From Corynebacterium diphtheriae (GTDB taxonomy: Bacteria; Actinomycetota; Actinomycetes; Mycobacteriales; Mycobacteriaceae): DNA of 64,000 nucleotides. The position numbers were made by a program, and so were the translations under genes. Below, piece after piece: positions 3,963 to 18,660 of this stretch. Numbering within the stretch: position 1 is the stretch's first letter; the number at the start of each line of letters is the position of its first letter. Below the pieces are notes generated by a model that worked only from the letters and a program-made list of their open reading frames with translations, made no database searches and had not been told where the DNA came from. The stretch spans positions 1,550,001 through 1,614,000 of the forward strand of contig NZ_LN831026.1 in the NCBI RefSeq assembly GCF_001457455.1, given 5' to 3'.

Positions 3963-5428
3963 TAGACTTCGCGCACAATCTTGTGATCGCGACGCGTGAC
4001 CGGATCAGACCCGTCCCAGCATTCGACGTTACGAACATTCGGAAGCATATCGCGGTGGAATACTGGATCAAGTCCCTTAGCCTTTTGCTGGTTGTAGTTC
4101 TTAAGCAGAGCAACCGCCACGCCACCCAGAGGCACGATAGCGATCAGGTTAATAACCACCATGGTTGCAGCGAATGTATCGCCCAAAGCCCAGACCAACG
4201 GCAATGGACCAATTGCGCCACCAAATACACAAGCGACAACGATCAAACGGAAAATCGTCATAGTGATCTTCGATTGCGTAAAGAACTCAATATTGGACTG
4301 TGCCAAGAATGTATTACCGATAACCGATGAGAACGCCAAGAAGAACAAAATAACAGTGATGAAGTGTGTACCCCACGCACCGACTTCTCCGCTCAATGCC
4401 TGCTGGGTAAGCGTGGCACCTCTAACGTCTGCACCATATTCTGGATCGCTCAGCAAAATGATAAACGCGGTAATCGAGCACACGAGAATGGTGTCAAAGT
4501 AAACGCCCAAAGTCTGTACCAGTCCTTGCTTTACTGGGTGCGAAACATTAGCAGTAGCTGCTGCATTGGGAGCAGAGCCTTGTCCTGCTTCATTAGAGAA
4601 CAAACCACGACGCATTCCGTTCATGAAAGCCGCTCCAACAGTGGCACCTGCGATCTCTTGGAAACCCAAAGCATGCGAAATAATGTCTCCGAACATGCCA
4701 GGAATCTTTTCGATGTTAAGTACCAGCACAATAATGCCGATGACCATGTAAGCCAGCGCCATGAGAGGAACCACAATTTGGGTGAAGTTCGCAATGCGCT
4801 GCACGCCACCAAAAATGATGACACCAGTCAGCAATGCCAATACTGCGCCAACGATAATTTTGAATTGATTATCGCTCGTACCCAGCGATTCTCCTACAGC
4901 CTCAGCAATAGAGTTCGACTGAATCGAGTTATACACAAAGCCGTAAGTAAAAGTGATCGCTACACCAAAAACGACGGCCAACCATTTCGCGTTCAGTCCA
5001 CGCGTCATATAAAACGCAGGGCCGCCACGATAGGTGCCGTCATCAGTTTTAGTTTTCCACAGCTGTGCCAGTGTTGATTCCACGAATGCAGTTGCACCAC
5101 CCAACAGAGCAATCATCCACATCCAGAACACGGCACCAGGACCGCCTAGGGTGATTGCCACTGCAACACCTGCAACGTTTCCGGTTCCCACACGTGAAGC
5201 AGCAGAAATTGTAAACGCCTTGAATGCAGAGATACCTTCTGCGTCAGTATGAGATTTTAGGGTGTCGTTCTTTTCCACGACTGCTCGGAACATATCCGGA
5301 ATCATCCGAATTTGGACGAGGATCGTGCGCCACGCGAAATAAAAACCGGCTGCTATTAGAAGAAATGGAATGATCTTCCAATAATTATCGTTAATGTCAT
5401 CTGTGATGAACGTCTGCAGGCTTTCCAT
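3962..5428 (-). CDS. Sodium:alanine symporter family (AGCS) protein
   Basis: Integral membrane carrier of 488 residues with about ten hydrophobic segments, belonging to the AGCS family of Na+ (or H+)-coupled alanine/glycine importers. Family signs are the block SAASRVGTGNVAGVAVAI (about residues 74-91), GGPGAVFWMWMIALLGG, and SNEAGQGSAPNAAA near the middle. The substrate is inferred from the family only. The gene starts the short unit with acyP and smc through a one-base overlap. In mycobacteria this slot holds a different gene, so the symporter is a corynebacterial addition to the cluster. Confidence 0.92.
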   Translation of the reverse strand: MESLQTFITDDINDNYWKIIPFLLIAAGFYFAWRTILVQIRMIPDMFRAVVEKNDTLKSHTDAEGISAFKAFTISAASRVGTGNVAGVAVAITLGGPGAVFWMWMIALLGGATAFVESTLAQLWKTKTDDGTYRGGPAFYMTRGLNAKWLAVVFGVAITFTYGFVYNSIQSNSIAEAVGESLGTSDNQFKIIVGAVLALLTGVIIFGGVQRIANFTQIVVPLMALAYMVIGIIVLVLNIEKIPGMFGDIISHALGFQEIAGATVGAAFMNGMRRGLFSNEAGQGSAPNAAATANVSHPVKQGLVQTLGVYFDTILVCSITAFIILLSDPEYGADVRGATLTQQALSGEVGAWGTHFITVILFFLAFSSVIGNTFLAQSNIEFFTQSKITMTIFRLIVVACVFGGAIGPLPLVWALGDTFAATMVVINLIAIVPLGGVAVALLKNYNQQKAKGLDPVFHRDMLPNVRNVECWDGSDPVTRRDHKIVREV

Positions 5429-5527
5429 AGAGTGAAATAGTACTGGCCCATGCAGCCATCACGTAAATTTACCTATGGTTTTGATAACGTTTTCCGCGAC
5501 AATGCTATGTCGATCACTCATTGTGGC

Positions 5528-6418
5528 CTAGTGCATAAGCTGACAACGTGGGCAAAAATGACTCGAGCGGTTAGCAAACTTTTCGCGGATAATATTCGTA
5601 CCACAGCGATCGCACGCTTGGCCTTGCTGGCCGTATGCATGAAGCGATACATCAAAATACCCCGATTGGCCATTGACGTTAACATAAAGAGAATCGAAGC
5701 TAGTTCCTCCTTTGTCTAAAGCCGCGTTCATGACTCGCTGACCGTGTTCGAGCAAATTACTTAATTGTGCGACAGACAAATGCGACGCAGAAGTTTGTGG
5801 ATGGATTCGTGCAGCCCACAACATCTCATCGGCGTAAATATTGCCTATTCCAGAGACAATTTCTTGGTTAAGCAGAACTCTTTTAATCTCACTATTTTTC
5901 TTGCGGATCAATCGCGCTAGATTTTCTCTTTTAAGTTGAGGGTCCAAAAGATCACGCGCTATGTGAGTGATCTGTTCTGGAACGCAACCGTGAGCAGTTT
6001 CTACAAATGTGGTGGGCGCCCAATAACCAAAAGTGCGCTGATCGACAAACCAAAGTTCGAAGCATTCCTGAGCATCTGAGCGAACAATTGTGGTACGAAT
6101 TCTACGATGAGGATGCAGAGTCGAGTTTTGAGCTTTTATCAGCATTTGACCGCTCATTCCCAAATGAACCAGTAGCCCTTGCTGGGGAGATCCGCATGCA
6201 GAATCACCATGGCTTGTAAGCTCAAACCACAAAAATTTGCCACGGCGACCTATGCGCGTGACCTCACGACCTCGTAGCGACCCTATGAGTTCGGCGGCCC
6301 CGCCTTCGACTGTCCTAATGCTGCGGGGGTGCTCAACGGCAACATCAGTGATAGTTGCGCCAAGCACATAAGGTGTAAGCCCGCGACGTACAACCTCAAC
6401 TTCGGGAAGCTCAGGCAT
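5528..6418 (-). CDS. mutM: Formamidopyrimidine-DNA glycosylase
   Basis: Base-excision repair glycosylase/AP lyase of 296 residues that removes 8-oxoguanine and formamidopyrimidines. It begins MPELPEVE, where Pro2 is the catalytic nucleophile and Glu3 the acid. The Lys of RGKFLWFEL (about residue 60) fits the conserved DNA-contact loop. A C-terminal zinc finger has Cys269, Cys272, Cys289 and Cys292. The start is fixed by the family N terminus and a GGAGG site just upstream. It lies 17 bases after rnc in the same direction. Confidence 0.96.
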   Translation of the reverse strand: MPELPEVEVVRRGLTPYVLGATITDVAVEHPRSIRTVEGGAAELIGSLRGREVTRIGRRGKFLWFELTSHGDSACGSPQQGLLVHLGMSGQMLIKAQNSTLHPHRRIRTTIVRSDAQECFELWFVDQRTFGYWAPTTFVETAHGCVPEQITHIARDLLDPQLKRENLARLIRKKNSEIKRVLLNQEIVSGIGNIYADEMLWAARIHPQTSASHLSVAQLSNLLEHGQRVMNAALDKGGTSFDSLYVNVNGQSGYFDVSLHAYGQQGQACDRCGTNIIREKFANRSSHFCPRCQLMH

Positions 6419-6435
6419 GAAGATCCTCCGAGTTG

Positions 6436-7185
6436 TTAGACAAACGCGGGATTATCTTGAAGGAAGCCAACCGCTTTGTGGGCTGCAGCTTGCTCCGCAA
6501 GTTTTTTGTTTGTTCCAACACCAGTTCCTAGCACAGTGCCATGAACTGCAACCTCTGCTGTGAAAGTTTGCTCATGCTCTGGACCTGTAACAGTAGAAGT
6601 ATATGTTGGCATCTCAAGGTTGCGCTCTGCCAAACGCTCTTGCAAGGTGGTTTTCCAGTCTTGGTGAAGACCCGTAGCGCTTGCCGTATCAATTTTGTGC
6701 TTGAACAGACGAAGCACCGTGCCCCGAGCAATTTCAAAACCATGCGCTAGGTAGATAGCGCCGAGAAGCGCCTCCGTCGTATCTGCGAGAATTGAGTCTT
6801 TGCTGCGACCGTCGTGAAGCTGTTCACCTTTACCCAGCAAAATGTGCTGCCCTAGGTTAATTTCGCGAGCAATGTCTGCAAGCCCATAACGGCTCACAAT
6901 ATTCGCGCGCATCTTGGAAATATCGCTTTCAGGGCTCGAGGTGTACTGCTGATACAACTGCCCTGCGACAGAAAGTCCTAAGACGGAATCGCCTAGAAAT
7001 TCTAGGCGCTCATTGTTGGGCAGCATGCCATTTTCGTTTGCAAACGAACGGTGTGTTAACGCCAGCACGAGTAGCTCACGTGGGATGTCAACCCCCAACG
7101 CATCAATCAGTGGTTGGTGATCAACGCTCTCGAATTCAAGTCGTAGCGCCTGCTCACCAGTGACGCGCTTTTTTCTCCTGCTCAC
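6436..7185 (-). CDS. rnc: Ribonuclease III
   Basis: Double-strand-specific endoribonuclease that processes rRNA and structured mRNAs. The 249-residue reading has the catalytic signature NERLEFLGDS at about residues 58-67, and a C-terminal double-stranded-RNA-binding domain (about 175-245). An open frame extends to a TTG at 7209, but the better start is the GTG at 7185. That GTG overlaps the TGA of the preceding DUF177 gene (GTGA) and has GGAGAA eight bases upstream. The overlap implies coupled translation. Confidence 0.95.
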   Translation of the reverse strand: MSRRKKRVTGEQALRLEFESVDHQPLIDALGVDIPRELLVLALTHRSFANENGMLPNNERLEFLGDSVLGLSVAGQLYQQYTSSPESDISKMRANIVSRYGLADIAREINLGQHILLGKGEQLHDGRSKDSILADTTEALLGAIYLAHGFEIARGTVLRLFKHKIDTASATGLHQDWKTTLQERLAERNLEMPTYTSTVTGPEHEQTFTAEVAVHGTVLGTGVGTNKKLAEQAAAHKAVGFLQDNPAFV

Positions 7186-7712
7186 AGGAACTTCTCCAAT
7201 CCAGCCCAACGAGGATCAACTAGTTCTGTTTCTCCTGCAATACCATCAGGTTCTGGCACCTCAGAATCCGACTGCACACAACCGCCTTCACACTGTGGAT
7301 TAAACGGCAGTGACATCCCCGCCTCATCGATAACAGCTTGCAGAATATCCACAGTGTCACCGGTAATAACCGTGACATCGTCGTCTTCACCGTCACCGTC
7401 ATCTCCAGTGATAAAGTCTTCGGTCAACGCAAACACTTCGTTAATATGAAATTGCGCCTGCGGTGCCATGTGCTGGAGACACCGCACACACTCACCAGAG
7501 AGCTCCGCAGACACATCTGCATCCACCATTAATGCATCTCCGAGTGGAGTAATGGTGGCATTGACTGTAACGTCACCGTTTTCGGGAATCGCAATCATCG
7601 CAGGGCCAATTCGGACAGGGCTGGGGCCTGTCTGCTGCATCGACGCTGGAACTGCACTGCCGCGTACCAAAGTTCCAACGTTAAAAACAAAGGGAGAAGA
7701 CTCAGTATTCAT
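7182..7712 (-). CDS. DUF177 (YceD-type) protein
   Basis: Acidic protein of 176 residues with the DUF177 pattern: a CVRCLQ pair near the middle and a CEGGC pair near the C terminus that could bind metal. In many bacteria this family is encoded directly before rpmF (ribosomal protein L32) and is linked to rRNA or ribosome biology. Here, as in mycobacteria, it precedes rnc and overlaps it by four bases (GTGA). Molecular activity is unknown. Confidence 0.88.
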   Translation of the reverse strand: MNTESSPFVFNVGTLVRGSAVPASMQQTGPSPVRIGPAMIAIPENGDVTVNATITPLGDALMVDADVSAELSGECVRCLQHMAPQAQFHINEVFALTEDFITGDDGDGEDDDVTVITGDTVDILQAVIDEAGMSLPFNPQCEGGCVQSDSEVPEPDGIAGETELVDPRWAGLEKFL

Positions 7713-7752
7713 CGTTGCACTAGTGTACTCGCGTCACGATATCTTCGGTGAA

Positions 7753-8466
7753 TTATGACTGTGAATGGTTCCCACCGCCGGACGCGCCGGCACCACGTCG
7801 CAAAGCTGCTCGATCACGAGAGATCGTCCGCAATGTAGACGACAAGGATTCCTCGAGATCCGCTAGCTTGTTTTCTACAAAGGTGTCGCATTCTTTGCGC
7901 AGTCTGTTGGAGTCTGCATGCGCCGCGTCTACTACCCTATGGGCCTCTTCGTTCGCACGACGGACCACTTCAGCTTCGCTCACCAGTCGCTGTTGTTCTG
8001 CAAGTCCATCGTCAACAGAGCGCTGGTATTGATCATTACCGCTTGCGATAAGTCGCTCGGCCTCAGCCTGCGCACGATTTACGGTATCGTCCGCTTCACG
8101 ACGGGCACCGTCCACGAGACGATCTGCCTCGTCCTGAGCTTGGCGTACCACGCGTTCTGCGTGTTCTTCAGCGTCTGCGACTAATGCATCGGCTTCTTCA
8201 CGGGACTGCGTCACATTACGATGAGCTTCCTCGTTAGCCTCATCAATTGTTGTGCGTGCGCGTTCTTGCGCACCGCGCAAAATCTCATCTTGTTGATCGA
8301 TCACATCTTGAGCATCATCAATTTCATTAGGCAGCGCATTACGTGCCTCATCGATCAAAGCAAGCATATGATGCCGTGGAACCATACAGTTTGAGGTCAT
8401 CGGGACGCCGGTGGACTTTTCTAGTATGTCAATAAGTTCATCGAAGCATTCGAATACGCGGTACAT
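7753..8466 (-). CDS. SepIVA/DivIVA-like septum protein
   Basis: Coiled-coil protein of 237 residues starting MYRVFECFDELIDILEKS. The N terminus, the phrase VPMTSNCMVPR, and the position before DUF177-rnc-mutM match mycobacterial SepIVA, a DivIVA-domain protein required for septation. Residues about 60-200 are a continuous charged coiled coil (repeated EADRL/EAERL blocks). The Gly/Ser-rich tail is short. The frame is open to a TTG at 8484 and has another ATG at 8475. 8466 was chosen from the family N terminus because no good ribosome site separates the options. By family it should act at the inner membrane/septum; this is inference from homology and gene order. Confidence 0.85.
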   Translation of the reverse strand: MYRVFECFDELIDILEKSTGVPMTSNCMVPRHHMLALIDEARNALPNEIDDAQDVIDQQDEILRGAQERARTTIDEANEEAHRNVTQSREEADALVADAEEHAERVVRQAQDEADRLVDGARREADDTVNRAQAEAERLIASGNDQYQRSVDDGLAEQQRLVSEAEVVRRANEEAHRVVDAAHADSNRLRKECDTFVENKLADLEESLSSTLRTISRDRAALRRGAGASGGGNHSQS

Positions 8467-8594
8467 GATAAACATGGTAACCAAGTAACTGTTGTGTCGC
8501 TTGTTAATATCAACGCGTGTTGCCCCTTTATAGAGTTCTACCTCTTATTATTGCAACAAAAAGACCCCTCTGACACTAGTCAATTTTTTCGACC

Positions 8595-8608
8595 GACTAG
8601 TACTAGAG
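8595..8608. repeat. Left copy of a 14-bp direct repeat (probable target-site duplication)
   Basis: GACTAGTACTAGAG occurs here, ending exactly where the TGTCATGTCC terminus begins. It occurs again at 15692-15705, starting exactly after the opposite IS terminus. Its centre CTAGTACTAG is a palindrome. The position fits a duplication made on insertion of the whole 8609-15691 block. Duplications of 4-15 bp are known for IS481-type elements. Confidence 0.75.
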
Positions 8609-8687
8609 TGTCATGTCCATAAACTTCCTGGACTCCGCGTCAAAAAACTAACTGGACTCCGAGTCCAAGAAGTCACTAGACATCACA
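8609..8687. mobile_element. 79-bp MITE-like IS end fragment
   Basis: The stretch 8614-8687 matches 15618-15691, the right end of the IS, with a single difference in 74 bases and in the same orientation. It holds two complete 24-bp repeats (8624-8647, 8648-8671). Its outer left end TGTCATGTCCAT resembles the IS left end TGTTATGTCCAT, and its inner right end is the IS right end, so it has terminal inverted repeats itself. It forms the left border of the composite block. Confidence 0.8.
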
Positions 8688-8695
8688 ATAACAAC

Positions 8696-9479
8696 CTAGT
8701 CGCGGTAAACCTCAGGGTCCTTGTTGAGCCAAGCGTAAACGCCACCAATGAGGAAGCCACCGCCGATGACGTTGCCGATCCACACCAGGGACCAGTTGGT
8801 CAGCACAGCACCCAAGGTGAAGCCGTCAGGCAGCGGGGTGGAGCAGAAGAAGGTTAGCGTCATCAGGCAGAAGTTTGCGATAACGTGCTCGAGGCTCAGG
8901 CCCACGAAGCAGGCGATAATCGGCACGATGACGAAGAACTTGGACACGATCTCCTTGGCAAAGACGGCACCAATAATGGCCATGTTGACCACGAAGTTGG
9001 CGAGCATACCTTCAACCAACAGGCCTGCAGGGTCTTTCTCCAGCTTGCCCATGGACAAGGTGGAAATGAGGTGGGTCGGGTCGACATGGCCCAGCTTCGC
9101 AGACATGCCCATTGCCGCTGCGAAGAGAGCCGCACCGACGAGGTTGAAGAACGTGGTCACGATGAGCAACCACAGGCCCCTTGCCCCAGCCAACCTGCTT
9201 ATTGATGGCGCCGTAGACTACATACATCATGCTGCCGGTAGCCAGTTCGGCGCCCAGGATAACGATGGCAAAAAGGCCGAGGCCGAAGAACAGAGCGAAG
9301 ACAGGAGCTCCGAGGCCCTCTGCATGCTTTTCGACGGCCTGTCCCAGAACCGGCAACGCCGTGCCGATGACTAGGTACACGCCCGTCAGAATCGAACGGA
9401 CGGCAAAGCGGCCAAAAGACGCATCCAGAAGCGTGACTTTCTTGTTTACCGCGGCAGCCGCGGTTTCATTGAGAGACAT
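8696..9479 (-). pseudogene. Formate/nitrite transporter (FNT) family gene, frameshifted
   Basis: Two overlapping frames together give one FNT-family channel of about 260 residues. The 5' frame (from ATG 9479) covers the first helices up to YVVYGAINKQVGWGK. The second frame (8696 to about 9180) continues with LWLLIVTTFFNLVGAAL and ends WLNKDPEVYRD. The switch falls at a run of four C (plus strand 9177-9180). Removing one base restores a continuous protein, so a single-base insertion is the likely lesion. FNT proteins are pentameric channels for formate, nitrite or hydrosulfide; the substrate here is unknown. As read, no full channel is made. A sequencing error is possible. Confidence 0.85.
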
Positions 9480-9627
9480 GTTTTTAAAAAAATTACTCCG
9501 GCCGCGCCATCCAACTCAAGTTTCCCCACGACACCCCCACGTCCACCATGTTATCCCTGTGATTTTTGGGACACCCGTTAAAATGGGCATGTTCATATTC
9601 TCTACGCGCGCAAAGGAGCGTTTCCTC

Positions 9628-10941
9628 ATGGGCCGCCACAGCGCTCCCGATGACGGTTCTAAGTCCCGGCGTCTGTTTTCTGAGCTTCGCCGCTACTCCA
9701 CGGTCCGATCCCACAACTCCCAATCAGCTTTGGACGCTACCCGCAATCCGGCCCCGCGCCGCCGCTCGGACTCTGCTGTCGGCTCCGCCGACGCGCACGC
9801 CCGCCCGGTCCAGCACATGCCGCAGCGCCCTCGCCAGCAGATGCCCCGCCAGCGGCGACCACGTACCGACTACCCTTCCCAGGTCGCGCCGCAACGCAGC
9901 GCACAGCGTGGCCCGCAACAGACACAGCAGTTCGCACCGCAATCCCCCTATCGCGCCGCCACGAATCGCACCACAGCCGCTGGAGCCGCAGCTGTCCGCG
10001 CCGCAGGTCACTCACAATCCGCAACGCAGCGCGCCAAGAATGCGTGGTGGCGTTCCGGCAAGCTGCGCATCGCCGTCGGCGTTGTGGCCACGATTGCCAT
10101 TGCCAGCACCATCCACCAGGCCGTCAAGCCGCCAGAGGGTCTGGAAGAGCGCCAAATTGTCGCCGAGTCCGCCCCGGTCATTGAGCCTTCGGCCGCGGTG
10201 GAGCTCTACATCCCGCACCTGCAACTCCACGCGGAGTTCGAGCCTGGCAATTGCCGCGTGCTCAACGGCTCCATTAATCCGAAGACCATGGATAAGGCGT
10301 GCACGTACACTGCCGATGACAAGCCGTATTCTCTCCCCGGCACCGACGCCCCCGACATCTCGGTTATCGCCGGCCATACCGGCGCGGGCGTGTCCGCCGT
10401 GTTCAATGATCTCTATGACGGTTCCGCCATGGAGCACAAGGTCACCATCGGCGACAAGCTTTACCTGCGCACCAAGAACTCCGGCGATGACTGGCTGGTC
10501 TACGAGGCCACCGACCTGCATGCCCCCGACAAGTCTGGACTTGCCGATGACGCCTCCGTTTGGGGCGACGGCCCCATGCCCGGCCGCCTATTGACTATTA
10601 GCTGTATCCAGCCAGCTAACCTTTTGGAGGCCGCAGTGAAGAACGCCGTGGTGGGCTGGCAGTACCGGGGCGTTGCCACCGCCGATGGCGGCTCCGGCCA
10701 GGAAACCCTGCCGGAGGAAATCGACCAATTCGCCCCGCCGGCCGACGCCCCCACCCAAGACCCCGCGAACGGCCCAGCCGGCGCACCGGCTGAAGCCCCC
10801 GCAGAAGCACCGATCCCAGCCGCCCCGGTCGAGGAGGCTCCAGTCCAGGACGCCCCCGTTGAGGCTCCTGCCGAGGCCCCGGTCGAAGCACCAGTCGAAG
10901 TCCCAGCAGACCAACCCGCCCCCGACGTCGCTCCGCACTAA
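9628..10941 (+). CDS. Sortase-family transpeptidase with Pro/Ala-rich tail
   Basis: Membrane-anchored protein of 437 residues. Residues 1-140 are Arg/Gln/Pro-rich and probably cytoplasmic. One helix follows (KLRIAVGVVATIAIAS, about residues 145-160). The outer domain carries sortase residues: His250 in VIAGHTG, Cys326 in LLTISCIQP and a candidate Arg347 in WQYRG. The last 70 residues are APAEAP-type repeats. Sortases cut C-terminal sorting signals and join proteins to the cell wall or pili. The start is ATG 9628 with AAAGGAG upstream; the longer open frame from 9229 overlaps the divergent FNT gene and is rejected. Composition is much richer in G+C than the flanking chromosome. The sortase class is not assigned. 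Confidence 0.8.
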   Translation: MGRHSAPDDGSKSRRLFSELRRYSTVRSHNSQSALDATRNPAPRRRSDSAVGSADAHARPVQHMPQRPRQQMPRQRRPRTDYPSQVAPQRSAQRGPQQTQQFAPQSPYRAATNRTTAAGAAAVRAAGHSQSATQRAKNAWWRSGKLRIAVGVVATIAIASTIHQAVKPPEGLEERQIVAESAPVIEPSAAVELYIPHLQLHAEFEPGNCRVLNGSINPKTMDKACTYTADDKPYSLPGTDAPDISVIAGHTGAGVSAVFNDLYDGSAMEHKVTIGDKLYLRTKNSGDDWLVYEATDLHAPDKSGLADDASVWGDGPMPGRLLTISCIQPANLLEAAVKNAVVGWQYRGVATADGGSGQETLPEEIDQFAPPADAPTQDPANGPAGAPAEAPAEAPIPAAPVEEAPVQDAPVEAPAEAPVEAPVEVPADQPAPDVAPH

Positions 10942-11103
10942 CCGCACTCCCTAGTCAAGCCTCTTCAACGCGGCCGATTCCGTCCCGTTGCATCGTGGCC
11001 AAACTCAGCGCCAGCGCCACAGCTGCCCCTGCCCCGCTAGTTCCAACGCTACACCTCACCGCGCCGCCCGCCAGCATTCAACTAGCCCCCCCGGAAAACG
11101 CCG

Positions 11104-11129
11104 AAGACCCCGGCCGGAGCCGAGGTCTT
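11104..11129 (-). terminator. Terminator of the rplN-rplX-rplE unit
   Basis: On the minus strand AAGACCTCGGC and GCCGGGGTCTT pair (one G-T wobble) about 15 bases after the rplE stop, with a short T run beyond. It ends the ribosomal unit inside the element, so the unit is self-contained. Confidence 0.75.
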
Positions 11130-11143
11130 GGTGCGGTACCGCT

Positions 11144-11695
11144 TTACTTGAATGGGAAGCCGAGCTCGCGAAGCAATGCGCGGCCTTCCTCGTTGTTGGT
11201 AGCGGTGGTAACGACGGTGATGTCCATACCGCGTGGGCGATCGATCTTGTCAACGTCGATTTCGTAGAACATGGTTTGCTCGGAGAGGCCGAACGTGTAG
11301 TTACCGTGACCATCGAACTGCTGGTCAGACAGGCCACGGAAGTCACGAATACGTGGCAGTGCGACGGTCAGCAAACGATCCAGGAACTCCCACATGCGGT
11401 CGCCACGAAGGGTAACGCGAGCACCGATTGGCATGCCTTCACGGAGCTTGAAGTTAGCGATGGACTTCTTGGCACGGCGAAGCTCTGGCTTCTGACCGGT
11501 GATCAAGGTGAGGTCCTCAAGTGCGCCGTTGATCAGCTTGGAGTCACGAGCAGCGTCGCCGACACCCATGTTGACAACAACCTTGACAACACCAGGGATC
11601 TGCATGACGTTCTCGTAGGAGAACTCATCGTTGAGCTTGGTGCGGATCTCTTCGCGGTAGCGGGTCTTCAGACGTGGAGTGTAGTTCTCGCTCAT
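11144..11695 (-). CDS. rplE: 50S ribosomal protein L5
   Basis: Complete L5 of 183 residues, a 5S rRNA-binding protein of the central protuberance. Conserved blocks are [48 protein letters not shown] and the C-terminal [11 protein letters not shown]. It starts two bases after the rplX stop and is followed at once by a terminator. Normally part of the spc ribosomal operon; in corynebacteria rplN-rplX-rplE form the end of one block of it. Here it lies between IS ends in another neighbourhood. The sequence shows no sign of decay. Confidence 0.97.
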
Positions 11696-11697
11696 GA

Positions 11698-12012
11698 TTA
11701 GATGTCCTTCCCGTTACGACGCGAGATACGGACCTTCTTGCCGTTCTCATCGAAGCGGTAGCCAACGCGGGTCGGATTGCCGTCGGAGTCCAAAACCATG
11801 ACGTTAGAAACGTGGATTGGAGCTTCCTGGGTGACGATTCCGCCAGACTCAGCGCCGAGCTCTGGAGCAGAGTTAGCAACGTGCTTCTTGATGCGGTTAA
11901 CGCCCTCAACCAAGACCTTTTCGGTCTTAGGGAAAGCCTGAATGACTTTACCCTTAGCACCCTTGTCTGGGCCGGAGATCACGAGAACCATATCGCCCTT
12001 GTGGATCTTCAT
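11698..12012 (-). CDS. rplX: 50S ribosomal protein L24
   Basis: Complete L24 of 104 residues, an assembly-initiating protein binding the 5' end of 23S rRNA. It has the KOW motif at the start ([21 protein letters not shown]) and the typical [10 protein letters not shown] block. Two-base gaps separate it from rplN and rplE, so the three are one unit. It looks intact and of usual length. Confidence 0.97.
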
Positions 12013-12014
12013 AA

Positions 12015-12383
12015 CTAGATCACCTCCGGTGCGAGAGAAACGATCTTCATGAACTTCTTGTCACGAAGCTCGCGAGCAACTGGGCCGAAGATACGGGTAC
12101 CACGTGGCTCGTTGTCGTTCTTGATCAAAACAGCAGCGTTTTCATCGAACTTGATGTAGGAACCGTCTGGACGACGGGTTTCCTTCTTTGCACGGACGAT
12201 AACAGCCTTAACGACTTCGCCAGCCTTAACGTTGCCACCTGGGGTAGCTTCCTTGACGGTAGCGACGATGACGTCGCCAATGCCAGCAAAACGTCGGGTG
12301 GAGCCACCGAGAACGCGGATGCACAGAATCTCTCGTGCACCGGTGTTATCGGCAACCCGCAGACGCGATTCCTGCTGAATCAC
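12015..12383 (-). CDS. rplN: 50S ribosomal protein L14
   Basis: Complete L14 of 122 residues with near-invariant blocks: [35 protein letters not shown] and [14 protein letters not shown]. The family start corresponds to GTG at 12383 (reads MIQQES), which has AGGAG at the proper distance upstream. The longer frame to 12584 is not supported. First gene of the rplN-rplX-rplE unit; its promoter region lies in the 535-base divergent spacer within the element. Confidence 0.97.
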
Positions 12384-12918
12384 TATGGGTCTCCTGACCT
12401 GGATCGAATGTGTGGCAGATTTCCGTCCTTGCCGCACGCGGTCTACAAACTTGCGATGCTCAAGCCTTGACAACGGACTGCACCGAAGGGTCTCGGACCG
12501 GCGGTTCGGAAACGCACCACTACGAGCCGACCAGGTTTCGCAACCCATACACTCAGCCACACGCAAGCGCTTGTACCAAAACACTGCCTTTGCTTGCGGA
12601 CGCCCCCACCTCCCTCACCCCCGTTACCTCCCCCTTCCACCCTCTTGGTGTTAGGTTTCGAATTCAAACCAGCACCCCACCTAAAGAAACTTAACCCTTC
12701 TACCTGCAGTTTCCCTCGCACGACGAGCAACTTTAGTGCGCTTTAAGGGGAGGGAACGCGCGTTCTAAAGAGCTCCTGCACGGCACCGAAAACCGGACTT
12801 AAGAGATGTTCATCAATATTTTTAACGTGACAGCTGTGAAAACGGTTGTTATTATGATTTTGTCCAGAAGTACTAGAACTTTCGGCAAGTACCCAAATTC
12901 CCTCAGAAGGAGAAACGC
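12384..12918. promoter_or_regulatory. Divergent spacer between rplN and the secreted-protein gene
   Basis: No convincing gene lies in these 535 bases. They must hold the rplN promoter (leftward) and the promoter of the secreted protein (rightward; TATGAT at 12853-12858 is a possible -10). On the minus strand at 12603-12642 five G runs (GGG, GGGGG, GGGGG, GGG, GGGGG) are separated by loops of 3-7 bases, which meets the usual pattern for a G-quadruplex. No -35/-10 pair for rplN was found with confidence. Confidence 0.45.
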
Positions 12919-13737
12919 ATGAAGCGTTTGCCACAGACCCTGACCGCTGCTGCCCTGACCGGCGCACTCACCTTCGGCGGCGCAGCTGTTGCTCAAGCTC
13001 AAAATTCGGATCCGGTAGAGACCGCCACCACCGACTATGCTGAACGCCATGATGTTGCTGCCGATCCGATTACCGTCGATGGTGTCGAGTACTTCAAACA
13101 GGAAGACGGTTCTTGGCTGTCCAAGCCGGTCGCAGGCAACCCTGTTCGCTTGACTGCTGAGCAGGCAGAAAAGTTCGTTAAGGAGCAGCAGGACACCTCC
13201 GCAATTCCTGCACCTGCCACCAAGGTAGACTCCAATCTCAACACTTGGTACCAGAGCATGAAGGATCCGTCGGTTTACGTCAAAGACCCGGCTCTGGTGA
13301 ATGAAGAGATCACCCCCGAGATGCGTGACGCTTACGCAAAGGCATTCCCTTCTGAAGAAACGAAGCCTGAAGATACGAAGCCTGAATTCGACAAGAAGAA
13401 GCTGGCTTGGTTAGCGCTGCCCGCTGCATTGATCATCGGTGGCATCACCTGGTACTTGTCCCAAGATGGCAAGACCTACGTCAAGGACGAGGCACGCAAG
13501 AACCAGGAGCCGACCGCTGAGGAAAAGGCTGCTTCCGAGCAGTTGCTGAACGCTAACAAGGACAAAGTTATGGCCCAGGGCGGTAAGCTCGCTGACGGCG
13601 CGAAGACCACCGGCACTACCCGCGGTATGTCCGCTGAGACCGGCTCCAACACCGTTGCACGCGGCCTGGCTGGCTTGGCCGTAGCTGCCATGGTTGCAGC
13701 TGCTGCATTCGCTGCACGCCGCAAGTTCTTCGCCTAA
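12919..13737 (+). CDS. Secreted, membrane-anchored protein with sorting-signal-like C terminus
   Basis: Protein of 272 residues with a signal peptide (about 1-27, cut after VAQAQ or AQA). The outer region has several WY-containing segments. A hydrophobic segment lies at about 161-179 (LAWLALPAALIIGGITWYL). The C-terminal end is SAETG, then a hydrophobic stretch, then ARRKFFA, which looks like a degenerate sortase sorting signal (LPxTG type). The start is supported by AGAAGGAG upstream. It is divergent from rplN; related corynebacteria also carry a secreted protein gene next to rplN. Function is unknown; attachment by the nearby sortase is inference. Confidence 0.75.
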   Translation: MKRLPQTLTAAALTGALTFGGAAVAQAQNSDPVETATTDYAERHDVAADPITVDGVEYFKQEDGSWLSKPVAGNPVRLTAEQAEKFVKEQQDTSAIPAPATKVDSNLNTWYQSMKDPSVYVKDPALVNEEITPEMRDAYAKAFPSEETKPEDTKPEFDKKKLAWLALPAALIIGGITWYLSQDGKTYVKDEARKNQEPTAEEKAASEQLLNANKDKVMAQGGKLADGAKTTGTTRGMSAETGSNTVARGLAGLAVAAMVAAAAFAARRKFFA

Positions 13738-13778
13738 GCGAGGACCTTCCTACCTCGTAGGAGCCTAAAGAGAGACTG

Positions 13779-13823
13779 GCTGCGCCGGTCGGGCTTGTGC
13801 CCGGCCGGCGCAGCTATCGTTTT
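13779..13823 (+). terminator. Terminator after the secreted-protein gene
   Basis: A perfect 10-bp stem, GCTGCGCCGG with CCGGCGCAGC, is followed by TATCGTTTT, about 40 bases after the stop codon. Confidence 0.85.
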
Positions 13824-13917
13824 ACGGCCATTACAACGGCATAAGCACTAAGCCAGAAGACATACTCTGTCTGCTTCACCAAGGTATTTCTGCCCCATGG
13901 TCTGCCCCCTTATACAA

Positions 13918-13959
13918 CTCATCCCCGCTCCGAACCCTATCTTCAGTAGCGGGGATGAG
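13918..13959. terminator. 12-bp inverted repeat next to the IS left end
   Basis: CTCATCCCCGCT and AGCGGGGATGAG pair perfectly around an 18-base loop, just outside the IS terminus and between two convergent genes. It could stop transcripts from either side; the T run is poor, so the role is open. Confidence 0.4.
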
Positions 13960-13969
13960 AGGTTAGCGT

Positions 13970-15571
13970 TTAACTGTTATGTCCATGAGGTTTTTGGACT
14001 TGGAGTCTAGGGACTTTGTGGACGCGGAGTCTCCCCGCTTTTTGGACGGGGAGTCCACGGAGTTTTTGTACTGGTGCTAGCTTGGCTTCTTTCCGGCGGC
14101 TTGACCGTGGCCCAGAGAGGTTGGATTTTAGCTCTAGGTGTTGTCGGTGCCACATGCCGACAACGTGGTTAATGTTGATTTGACCGCCGGGTGGACGCTG
14201 ATTCAGTTGGATCGGTAGCGGAAATGAAAACAATTTCTCACCATCGTGATCAGTAAAAAATTCCACATAGTCATCAGCTACGCTGCTGTAGATGGCTCGA
14301 TTTTTGAAGCGCAGCCCGACATAGAGACCGTGTCCCATGACGCGTACCACCCCGCTTTTGTTAATCCACAGCTTGTCTGGGATAGGCCAGAGTGCATTTA
14401 CACCGGTAGAGCGTGGCATTACGGTTAAAGAATCGGCGTAGGGTGTATCTTGCTGGATCGCCTGAGTGTCGTTACCTGGTGCCCTGCCTGAAGCTGCCAC
14501 TTCAGGCAGGGCATTATCTGTCGCGACCACCGTGTCGACTGCTAAGGCATCCACCCGGTTGTCGGGGTGAATCCGATGATAATGTTTCGCGATTTTCGTC
14601 CATAAAACATCTGGGTCAATCGGCTGCGTCGGTGGCTGGGCATGCGAGATAATCTCCCAAGCTTGGGCTGGGGTCATGTGCATCTTGCCCCTGAGAAGTC
14701 CTTGGTGGCGACGGCGTGTGTTGTAGAAGTTGCGGTAGTCGACAATCAGCTGTTGGGCCTGCGCCAGCGTCGTCGAGGTACGAGCATCCAAAAACTTGGT
14801 CATGGATTGGTGTGATCGCTCGTCTTTGCCTTGCGTCGTGGGAGCAAAGCCCGCACTTGATTTAACTTTCAGGCTGGCGAGCCAGCGTTCGGTGTGCGAC
14901 AGCCGGCCGCGATGGTAGGTGGCAAAGGAATCACCGTTGTCAGAGAGGACTTCTTGGGGAAGTCCGTAAGCATCAATGGCTCCACTGAGCGTGATGCGGG
15001 CATCGGTGCCGTTTTCTGGAGTTCCAAAAGCTTGGGAGCCGACGTCGAAGCGGCTGGCATCGTCGACGACTTGGTAGATAGTCACGTGCGTGTGAGGCAC
15101 AGCGAAGAGCCTGTAGACAAACGCATCAATCTGCCACAGTTCATTGACTTCGCCCCTAGCAAAGTCCTTGTAGGACTTACGTGGTCGTTTACGTGCATTG
15201 ATGTCAGCGACGCCAGCCTCGTGCAACCATTGTGCGATTAAAGCTCGTGACGGTGGTTGGTCGTAGCCGAGTTCGTCGAGGAAGAAGTAGAAGATTGACC
15301 ATGGGCCGCAGTCTTGGCCGCGGGCTTGTAACGTACCGCGAGCTTGCAGGACCTGTTGTCGAATCGTGTCATCGTAGACCCGTCGCGGGTTCAGCGGTGC
15401 CGTGCTGTCCGGCACAATGCCAGCCCGCCCGCGTTCGGCGATACGTGCTTTGATGTTGTAATACGTCTGCTTCTATACGCCGATGTTCTTGCAGAACTGC
15501 TGGACCGTGATGCCCTCACGGATGGGGTCGAAATCCGCTATCTTCTTGCGGAGCGTAATAGGAATTGCCAT
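13970..15571 (-). pseudogene. IS481-type DDE transposase, broken by an in-frame TAG
   Basis: Reading from ATG 15571 gives a 533-codon transposase with a stop TAG at codon 33 (15473-15475), inside an N-terminal helix-turn-helix (ITVQQFCKNIGV*KQTYYN). Beyond it the frame is open from GTG 15415 to 13970. The integrase core is clear: WQIDAF (first Asp), VLSDNGDSF (second Asp) and QGKDERSH (Glu). The C-terminal tail is an 8-residue repeat (VQK, VHK, VQK endings) encoded by the IS left-end array, and the stop codon lies just outside the IS. One base change would restore the gene. A shorter protein from the GTG would lack the helix-turn-helix. Confidence 0.85.
13991..14086. repeat. Left-end array: four 24-bp repeats
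   Basis: Units start at 13991, 14015, 14039 and 14063 with the pattern TTTTTGGACnnGGAGTC then seven variable bases. The fourth unit is degenerate. They lie inside the 3' end of the transposase frame and encode its 8-residue repeats. Confidence 0.85.
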
Positions 15572-15579
15572 CCCCACAT

Positions 15580-15675
15580 TGTCAAGAAGCCAGAGTCTAA
15601 AAAGTCGTTAGACATCCTGTCCATAAACTTCCTGGACTCCGAGTCAAAAAACTAACTGGACTCCGAGTCCAAGAA
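15580..15675. repeat. Right-end array: four 24-bp repeats
   Basis: Units at 15652-15675, 15628-15651, 15604-15627 and 15580-15603, read on the minus strand, share the pattern of the left array (for example TTCTTGGACTCGGAGTCC). Decay increases inward. Spacing and distance from the terminus (16 bases) mirror the left end exactly, as expected for transposase-binding sites. Confidence 0.85.
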
Positions 15676-15691
15676 GTCACTAGACATCACA

Positions 15692-15705
15692 GACTAGTAC
15701 TAGAG
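15692..15705. repeat. Right copy of the 14-bp direct repeat
   Basis: GACTAGTACTAGAG starts immediately after the IS right terminus and is identical to 8595-8608. Confidence 0.75.
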
Positions 15706-15731
15706 GGGGCCACTGCACACGTTAACAGAGC

Positions 15732-17493
<1,762 letters not shown>

Positions 17494-18660
17494 ATGCCCC
17501 ACCCCAATCGCACGTTCAAGATTGTGATCGCTCCAGATTCTTTTAAATCCACCGCTACCACTTCACAAGCTGCAGCTTTTATTGCGGAAGGCATTCAAGC
17601 AGCCGCTCAAAGCAACGAGTGCGAAGGCATAAACGTTGAGATAACAACGGTTCCCATGGCGGACGGTGGCGAAGGTACGTCGTCATGCTTCGAAGGAATC
17701 GACATCACGCTTCCGACAACAGATGCCAATGGCCGACTCACCGAAGCGACTTATCGTTTCGACCCACAATCGGAAACTGCGTACATTGATGTGGCAGCAG
17801 CCTCCGGATTACCTGCAGTAGAAGATGAACTTCGCCCGCTTACTGCAGATACTTACGGCACCGGTGTCCTTATTGCGGATGCACAAACTCGAGGTGCTCG
17901 ACGCATTGTATTGGGACTAGGCGGAACTGCCACCACCGATGCCGGAACCGGAATTTTAGTGGCATTAGGTGCAACACCTATGAATAAGCAAGGCCTGCCC
18001 CTACGCCAAGGCGGTGGAGCCCTCGGCGAGCTTGATTATCTCGACACCGCCCAAGTAAACATCCCTGCGGCTGCCATGTCGTGGGTACTGCTTACCGACG
18101 TTAACTCCCCTGCAACTGGTCCTGAAGGCACAGCACATACCTTTGCTGCCCCAAAAGGAGCCTCCGCGGAAGACATAGCCATGTTAGAAAACGGGATCGC
18201 AACAATCTGTGCTGTTTCCGGTGTTGATCCAACAACCCCAGGTCTAGGTGCCGCAGGCGGACTTCCCATTGGAATCACATGGCTTTCTAGCCTTATCCAT
18301 GGCAACAATAACAATGTGGTTATCATGCCCGGCGCGCAGGTGGTTGCCAACGCATGCAATCTTGAAGAACACATTGCGAATGCCGATCTCGTGATTACTG
18401 GTGAAGGCCGCTTGGATCATACTTCGTTTAATACCAAGGTCGTTGGCACTATCGCCCGTCTCGCAGCACAGCATGACGTAGACATGATGGTTCTTGCCGG
18501 TAGCGTAGAGCCTAGTTGCTCTCAACAATTCGATCATTTATCGATGACAGCAGTCGAGCTACCTGACTTCAAGGAGCATTTGAGCGTGCGAGATCAGATC
18601 CGTTCCGCAGCGCAACAGGCCTTTACTACTTATGCGCTGACAAAAACGGTCCAAGGATAA
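17494..18660 (+). CDS. glxK: Glycerate kinase
   Basis: Kinase of 388 residues of the GckA/GlxK family that phosphorylates D-glycerate. Seen are the N-terminal KIVIAPDSFKST, the block VPMADGGEGTS, GLGAAGGLPIGITWL and the C-terminal GEGRLDHTSFNTKV. The frame is open further upstream, but ATG 17494 was chosen because AAGGATAGG precedes it and the family N terminus begins there. The last 31 bases overlap the convergent gene that follows. Confidence 0.9.
   Translation: MPHPNRTFKIVIAPDSFKSTATTSQAAAFIAEGIQAAAQSNECEGINVEITTVPMADGGEGTSSCFEGIDITLPTTDANGRLTEATYRFDPQSETAYIDVAAASGLPAVEDELRPLTADTYGTGVLIADAQTRGARRIVLGLGGTATTDAGTGILVALGATPMNKQGLPLRQGGGALGELDYLDTAQVNIPAAAMSWVLLTDVNSPATGPEGTAHTFAAPKGASAEDIAMLENGIATICAVSGVDPTTPGLGAAGGLPIGITWLSSLIHGNNNNVVIMPGAQVVANACNLEEHIANADLVITGEGRLDHTSFNTKVVGTIARLAAQHDVDMMVLAGSVEPSCSQQFDHLSMTAVELPDFKEHLSVRDQIRSAAQQAFTTYALTKTVQG

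Follow-up and report, generated by a model that had tools for sequence, protein, structure and literature searches.

Ribosomal protein genes are held to resist interspecies transfer, their products having to fit many partners. In composite transposons of the IS481 family, two IS-derived ends enclose the cargo and a direct target duplication stands outside them; a duplication of 14–15 b is within the range of the family. We found the same arrangement at a locus of Corynebacterium diphtheriae in the window analyzed here, a stretch of 64,000 nucleotides from contig NZ_LN831026.1 (positions 1,550,001–1,614,000). The locus differed from such transposons in that one end was a mini-IS of 79 b, in that an essential ribosomal operon (rplN-rplX-rplE, hereafter rplNXE) was part of the cargo, and in that the cargo had probably been overwritten in part by the host. 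The rplNXE locus of Corynebacterium striatum ATCC 6940 (G211, L027) had the same gene order as this block. It differed in carrying the only rplNXE match of that genome, which was 85% identical to the block and not of host type, and in leaving two intergenic stretches of the block unmatched. Duplicate translation genes are known to undergo gene conversion in Salmonella, where tufA and tufB are two resident and nearly identical genes (PMC5485169), whereas the present case would involve a three-gene operon from another species that was about 15% diverged before conversion. No published account of this rplNXE duplication was found by a literature search of titles and abstract openings. We propose, with a probability of roughly 0.87, that an IS481-family composite transposon brought in a C. 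striatum-like chromosome piece and that the native operon then overwrote its rplNXE by gene conversion.

Transposon unit and insertion site

The unit between the outer IS ends extended from 8609 to 15691 and comprised 7,083 b. The original prediction had placed IS481-type ends at 8609 and 15691 with a 14-bp duplication outside both. These ends proved to be real, belonging to a 79-b element on the left and a 1.7-kb element on the right, and the duplication was exact, with GACTAGTACTAGAG at both 8595–8608 and 15692–15705; no third copy was found within the window on either strand. The right element (13975–15691, minus strand) was a full-length element, probably of the IS481 family, with 96% identity to two copies in genome G001. 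The best model for its transposase was NF033577 (IS481 family), with an E value of 2.2e-36 and, for the open part of the frame, a score of 125.9 bits, short of the cut-off of 224. A premature in-frame stop, following the first 32 codons, interrupted the transposase frame, and an unbroken frame of the same IS was present in G001. Because of the interruption, ongoing movement is impossible with this IS copy alone.

The mini-IS at the left outer end of the unit (8609–8687, minus strand) consisted of an IRR-like terminus fused to approximately 74 b from the 5' end of the IS, and showed 97% identity with the end of the full IS in the same orientation. By eye, the IS termini were of the TGTGATG/CATAACA type. 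Among the matches listed from other genomes there was none to the whole 79-b mini-IS; the best, in G132, covered 77 of the 79 b at 99% identity and may be an ordinary IS end. The cargo was thus bordered on both sides by full or reduced IS ends in the same orientation, with the direct duplication outside the outer ends, as in a composite transposon. The position of the duplication indicates that transposition probably used the outward-facing end of the full IS and the IRR-like outer terminus of the mini-IS as transposon ends. The two G001 copies of the same IS were flanked by 15-b direct repeats, as read by eye, and the 14 b found here therefore fits. Elsewhere in the host genome, no other near-full copy of this IS was found, and C. 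striatum ATCC 6940 contained pieces of it at 93% identity.

The gdhA regions of ten relatives were compared with positions 5000–17700 of the window, block included, and no part of the block was matched in any of them. SepIVA and gdhA were adjacent without the block in five of the ten, at a distance of approximately 120–490 b (G184, G086, G234, C. striatum, and G050), which bore out the predicted interruption of the SepIVA–gdhA neighborhood. Approximately 2.3 kb of other sequence with other open frames lay between the two genes in G225, G148, and G138, and the compared stretches of G172 and G193 contained no SepIVA match. No fetched relative carried rplNXE between SepIVA and gdhA, and the assembly consisted of one contig. 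The name SepIVA itself could not be confirmed, as the product matched DivIVA/Wag31 models with scores under the cut-offs.

Cargo genes and their kinship with C. striatum

The secreted-protein gene and rplNXE had been listed earlier for the block and were both present, and two further genes had been missed: a formate/nitrite transporter (FNT) gene at 8696–9479 (minus strand) and a sortase-like gene at 9628–10941 (plus strand). The FNT gene was frameshifted; its open 3' part matched Pfam PF01226, and its DNA showed 91% identity with that of C. striatum G211. In the transporter tree (21 rows; L018, a partial match, was left out), it grouped with C. striatum (90/93) and G149 (97/94). The gene at 9628–10941, which we take to be sortase-like, was given a start codon chosen by eye, and the long ORF in which it lies (9229–10941) had no Pfam or NCBIfam match. 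It showed 74% identity over 494 b with C. striatum and was about equally close to several other species. The secreted-protein gene (12919–13737, plus strand), also without a match in Pfam or NCBIfam, showed 87% identity over 775 b with C. striatum G211, and a further 99 b matched at 94%.

The gene order of the block, that is FNT, sortase-like, rplE-rplX-rplN, and secreted protein, was the same as in C. striatum ATCC 6940 (G211:C85, NZ_GG667519.1) and in the G149 matches to the block, and the C. striatum match spanned 8697 to 13975, corresponding to the inner IS ends. Two intergenic stretches aligned poorly with C. striatum, with only 25% at 10950–11137 and 43–56% at 12612–12918. Because these stretches and the sortase-like gene are not close to C. 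striatum, the cargo may be of mixed origin. By these comparisons, the donor would be a C. striatum-like strain other than ATCC 6940. The closest relatives of the flanking cargo lay outside the kin of the host, as judged from the transporter tree, from the identities, and from the named secreted-protein matches, which were led by C. striatum, and a foreign arrival of the block is strongly supported. The secreted protein led to seven named loci, six from Corynebacterium and one labelled Micromonospora.

The two halves of the secreted protein showed different relationships. When compared with the protein of the window, the C-terminal half gave 167–168/179 for C. diphtheriae-named proteins and 146/179 and 157/179 for two C. 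striatum proteins, which points to a host of the C. diphtheriae complex. In the N-terminal half, the C. diphtheriae-named proteins closely resembled the protein of C. striatum ATCC 6940 (107/118 for P0059), and the protein of the window matched P0014, representing another C. striatum type, at 77/98 versus 55/119 for the ATCC 6940 type. Two N-terminal allele types were each present in C. striatum and in C. diphtheriae-like proteins, and the C-terminal half followed the host (P0014, P0059, P0060, P0062, and P0073; L027:9336–10220). The gene looks like a mosaic, particularly in its N-terminal half, resulting perhaps from repeated exchange with C. striatum, and the secreted protein is possibly recombining and antigenically variable. 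The C. diphtheriae-named secreted proteins presumably sit in the same block.

Host-type tract in the ribosomal protein genes

Intact L14, L24, and L5 genes had been predicted in the block, and all three were confirmed by Pfam on the minus strand. rplN (L14; 12015–12383; PF00238) had a GTG start and was identical to the native gene, rplX (L24; 11698–12012; PF17136) differed from the native gene by one base resulting in R52L, and rplE (L5; 11144–11695; PF00281 and PF00673) had a donor-type stop and encoded 183 aa, compared with 187 aa in the native gene and 183 aa in C. striatum. A search of the genome for a second rplNXE, suggested with the original prediction, revealed a complete native copy at C1:393144–394441 of the same single-contig genome (2,463,666 b), approximately 1.17 Mb from the block. 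Because the native copy was still present, rplNXE had been duplicated, not moved. Upstream of the native locus lay the S10 operon and a set of ABC-type transporter genes, and downstream of it an amino-acid transporter and a serine dehydratase (names assigned by eye); the ABC-transporter-like set lay between the S10 operon and rplN, at approximately 6400–10010 of L005 (G000:C1:389400–393010).

The block and the native locus were 99.5% identical over 11147–12445. A four-way alignment of the block, the native locus, C. striatum, and G149, the rows of which were summed to give the identities, delimited a host-type tract at 11147–12425 with 1278/1279 identity to the native locus and 1086/1279 to C. 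striatum. The substitution underlying L24 R52L was the sole difference of the tract from the native sequence. The tract comprised the coding regions minus the last rplE codons, plus approximately 40 b upstream of rplN, and the identities switched sharply at both borders. At the left border (11138–11146), the block agreed with C. striatum in 9/9 positions and with the native locus in 2/9, these nine being the only donor-like bases adjoining the tract on that side. At the right border, the agreement was 20/20 with C. striatum and 15/20 with the native locus at 12426–12445, 50/55 versus 27/55 at 12446–12500, and 90/111 versus 57/111 at 12501–12611; in the alignment, the sequence upstream of rplN at 12426–12611 was of donor type. 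A stretch nearly identical to a second locus that switches sharply to other ancestry at both sides is the pattern of a conversion tract, and we infer that 11147–12425 is a gene-conversion patch. As for the terminator that the segment had been said to contain, a hairpin at approximately 11104–11129 was plausible at most (z −2.04, with 9 of 200 shuffles folding equally well), and the terminator scan made no call. A promoter scan of 10900–12960 gave nothing on the minus strand.

Direction of the proposed conversion

In five 200-b rows of the tract, C. striatum and G149 were 91.5–99% identical, and both the block and the native locus showed 82–87% identity with C. striatum. With only 82–87% identity to C. 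striatum, the tract was therefore unlike the cargo expected of a donor with 91% transporter identity. The rplNXE of the host showed 88–89% identity with G225, G148, and G138 and 85% with C. striatum, and the S10 operon of the host showed 91% identity with G225 and G148 and 85% with C. striatum. For the rplNXE tree (32 rows), thirty loci (L032–L061) were considered: L032 was the block, 25 entered the tree, and L052, L057, L058, and L059 were left out. In this tree, the block and the native copy were sisters (100/99), separate from C. striatum, G149, G001, and G150 (100/100), and the fork separating the other 25 rows had a support of no more than 94/96. In AU tests on a 31-row tree, a grouping in which only the block joined C. 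striatum and G149 was rejected (p 2.7e-6), and one in which the block and the native copy joined the C. striatum group together was borderline (p 0.0502), a weakness of the present reading. The distances favor the native copy as the source of conversion and the block as its recipient, with the AU test of the reverse grouping being borderline.

Proposed history and alternative explanations

Read along the transposase strand, the unit would consist of the duplication, the full IS (15691–13975), 5.3 kb of foreign chromosome (13974–8688), the mini-IS (8687–8609), and the duplication. The cargo would be derived from the rplNXE neighborhood of a C. striatum-like donor and would have landed between SepIVA and gdhA in one transposition event, the ribosomal genes most likely being passengers of the transposon. 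After this arrival, rplNXE of the host would have replaced the donor alleles through homologous recombination, that is by gene conversion; arrival probably preceded conversion. To our knowledge, corynebacteria have no MutS/MutL system for mismatch repair, and its absence would make it easier for diverged sequences to recombine. The outcome would be two nearly identical operons, the second of which keeps the donor upstream region, from which it may be expressed, and the donor L5 stop. The event is real and, although assembled from known elements, unusual; host alleles most likely overwrote the operon in place.

The segment had originally been thought to have moved or been copied to its present site as a transposon. 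The unit is indeed transposon-like and has a target duplication; a copy of the unit from the spc region of the host is the part that failed, since the native neighbors differ and the block neighbors follow C. striatum. The identity of 1278/1279 within the tract would suit a transposition of the host's own rplNXE segment within the genome, yet the host retains its native copy, the identity ends at the tract edges, beyond which the native neighbors are different genes, and the genes next to the tract in the block follow the C. striatum locus. A plain move or copy of the host's own segment was rejected because the block neighbors are foreign, and transposition of that segment within the genome is extremely improbable. 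Two nearly identical copies of 1.28 kb can also confuse a short-read assembly, so that a mis-join or collapsed repeat might have put native rplNXE inside the block. However, a mis-join cannot create a 14-b duplication at the IS ends, donor-type reads would differ by approximately 15%, and the protein collection lists the L24 variant of the block on 7 contigs, the longest of which equals this genome in length; we regard such an artefact as very improbable.

Sequence identity alone gives no direction, and the acquired block might instead have brought the present alleles and overwritten the native copy, a course that the AU test of the block and native copies with the C. striatum group did not clearly reject. 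It is improbable nevertheless, because C. striatum and G149 are so much closer to each other within the tract than the block and native copies are to C. striatum, despite the 91% identity of the transporter, and because the rplNXE distances of the host parallel those of its S10 operon, both being closer to G225 and G148 than to C. striatum.

For conversion of the block by the native operon, we offer one tentative and on balance unlikely interpretation, namely that conversion acted as a quality filter. Cells would have retained the transposon, perhaps because of its variable secreted protein, only once host alleles had replaced the foreign L14-L24-L5. As a free duplicate, the acquired copy could then drift or supplant the native operon, and the block would act as a landing pad at which more sequence could be exchanged with C. 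striatum. The landing-pad part fits the two N-terminal allele types common to C. striatum and C. diphtheriae-like proteins. At this locus the order of events is readable: an essential operon would have crossed between species as transposon cargo, and only its coding part would then have been replaced. The tolerance of foreign ribosomal proteins, selection for conversion, and the effect of an extra copy all become testable here. In such strains, rplN, rplX, and rplE may be present in two copies, which matters for typing schemes assuming that ribosomal genes are single-copy.

Occurrence of second rplNXE copies and of the L24 variant

All 242 genomes of the genus set, which contained one genome per species, gave rplNXE matches, and 219 of them gave a single match. 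More than one match was obtained in the host and 22 others (23/242), and a complete second copy was seen only in the host. This search was limited to two scored candidates per genome, a number that still allows a second full copy to be seen, as in the host. Widespread complete duplication was rejected, as a repeat search of the 22 others gave partial pieces, contig breaks, and short matches. The rplN end of the operon was present as a partial second copy at G183:C1:1338030–1338596 (567 b, 86%) and at G058:C1:259127–259633 (507 b, 82%). Partial rplN copies at G143:C1:94664–94996 (333 b) and G144:C11:79564–79901 (338 b), both 86%, lay near FNT-type transporter genes, as if the rplNXE neighborhood had been rearranged there too.

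In the protein collection, native L24 was found on at least 1000 contigs, compared with the 7 carrying the R52L variant of the block. Among the 120 proteins listed, the host-type L24 (P0244) had 24 one-residue neighbors (P0243–P0279) and another hub, P0282, had 7. A drifting second copy could explain many of these one-residue variants. These variants were not counted as evidence of relaxed selection on the block copy, because sampling was uneven (at least 1000 versus 688 contigs), sequencing errors are possible, and the two copies are indistinguishable in such data. Some of the host-type variants, G14S, V71G, and R86C, were at positions otherwise invariant among the proteins listed. In a search with the L5 protein, no host protein was among the best 120.

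Carriage by a phage was rejected, there being no phage match in near mode. Plasmid carriage was likewise rejected: the 20 listed of 41 matching records covered the ribosomal tract only, at 64–76%, and none covered 80% of the query. One of the plasmid records, a 224-kb record of Tsukamurella tyrosinosolvens (NZ_LR134464.1), had annotated rplE, rplX, and rplN at 186795–188091 (76%), and this record may be a mislabelled chromosome piece.
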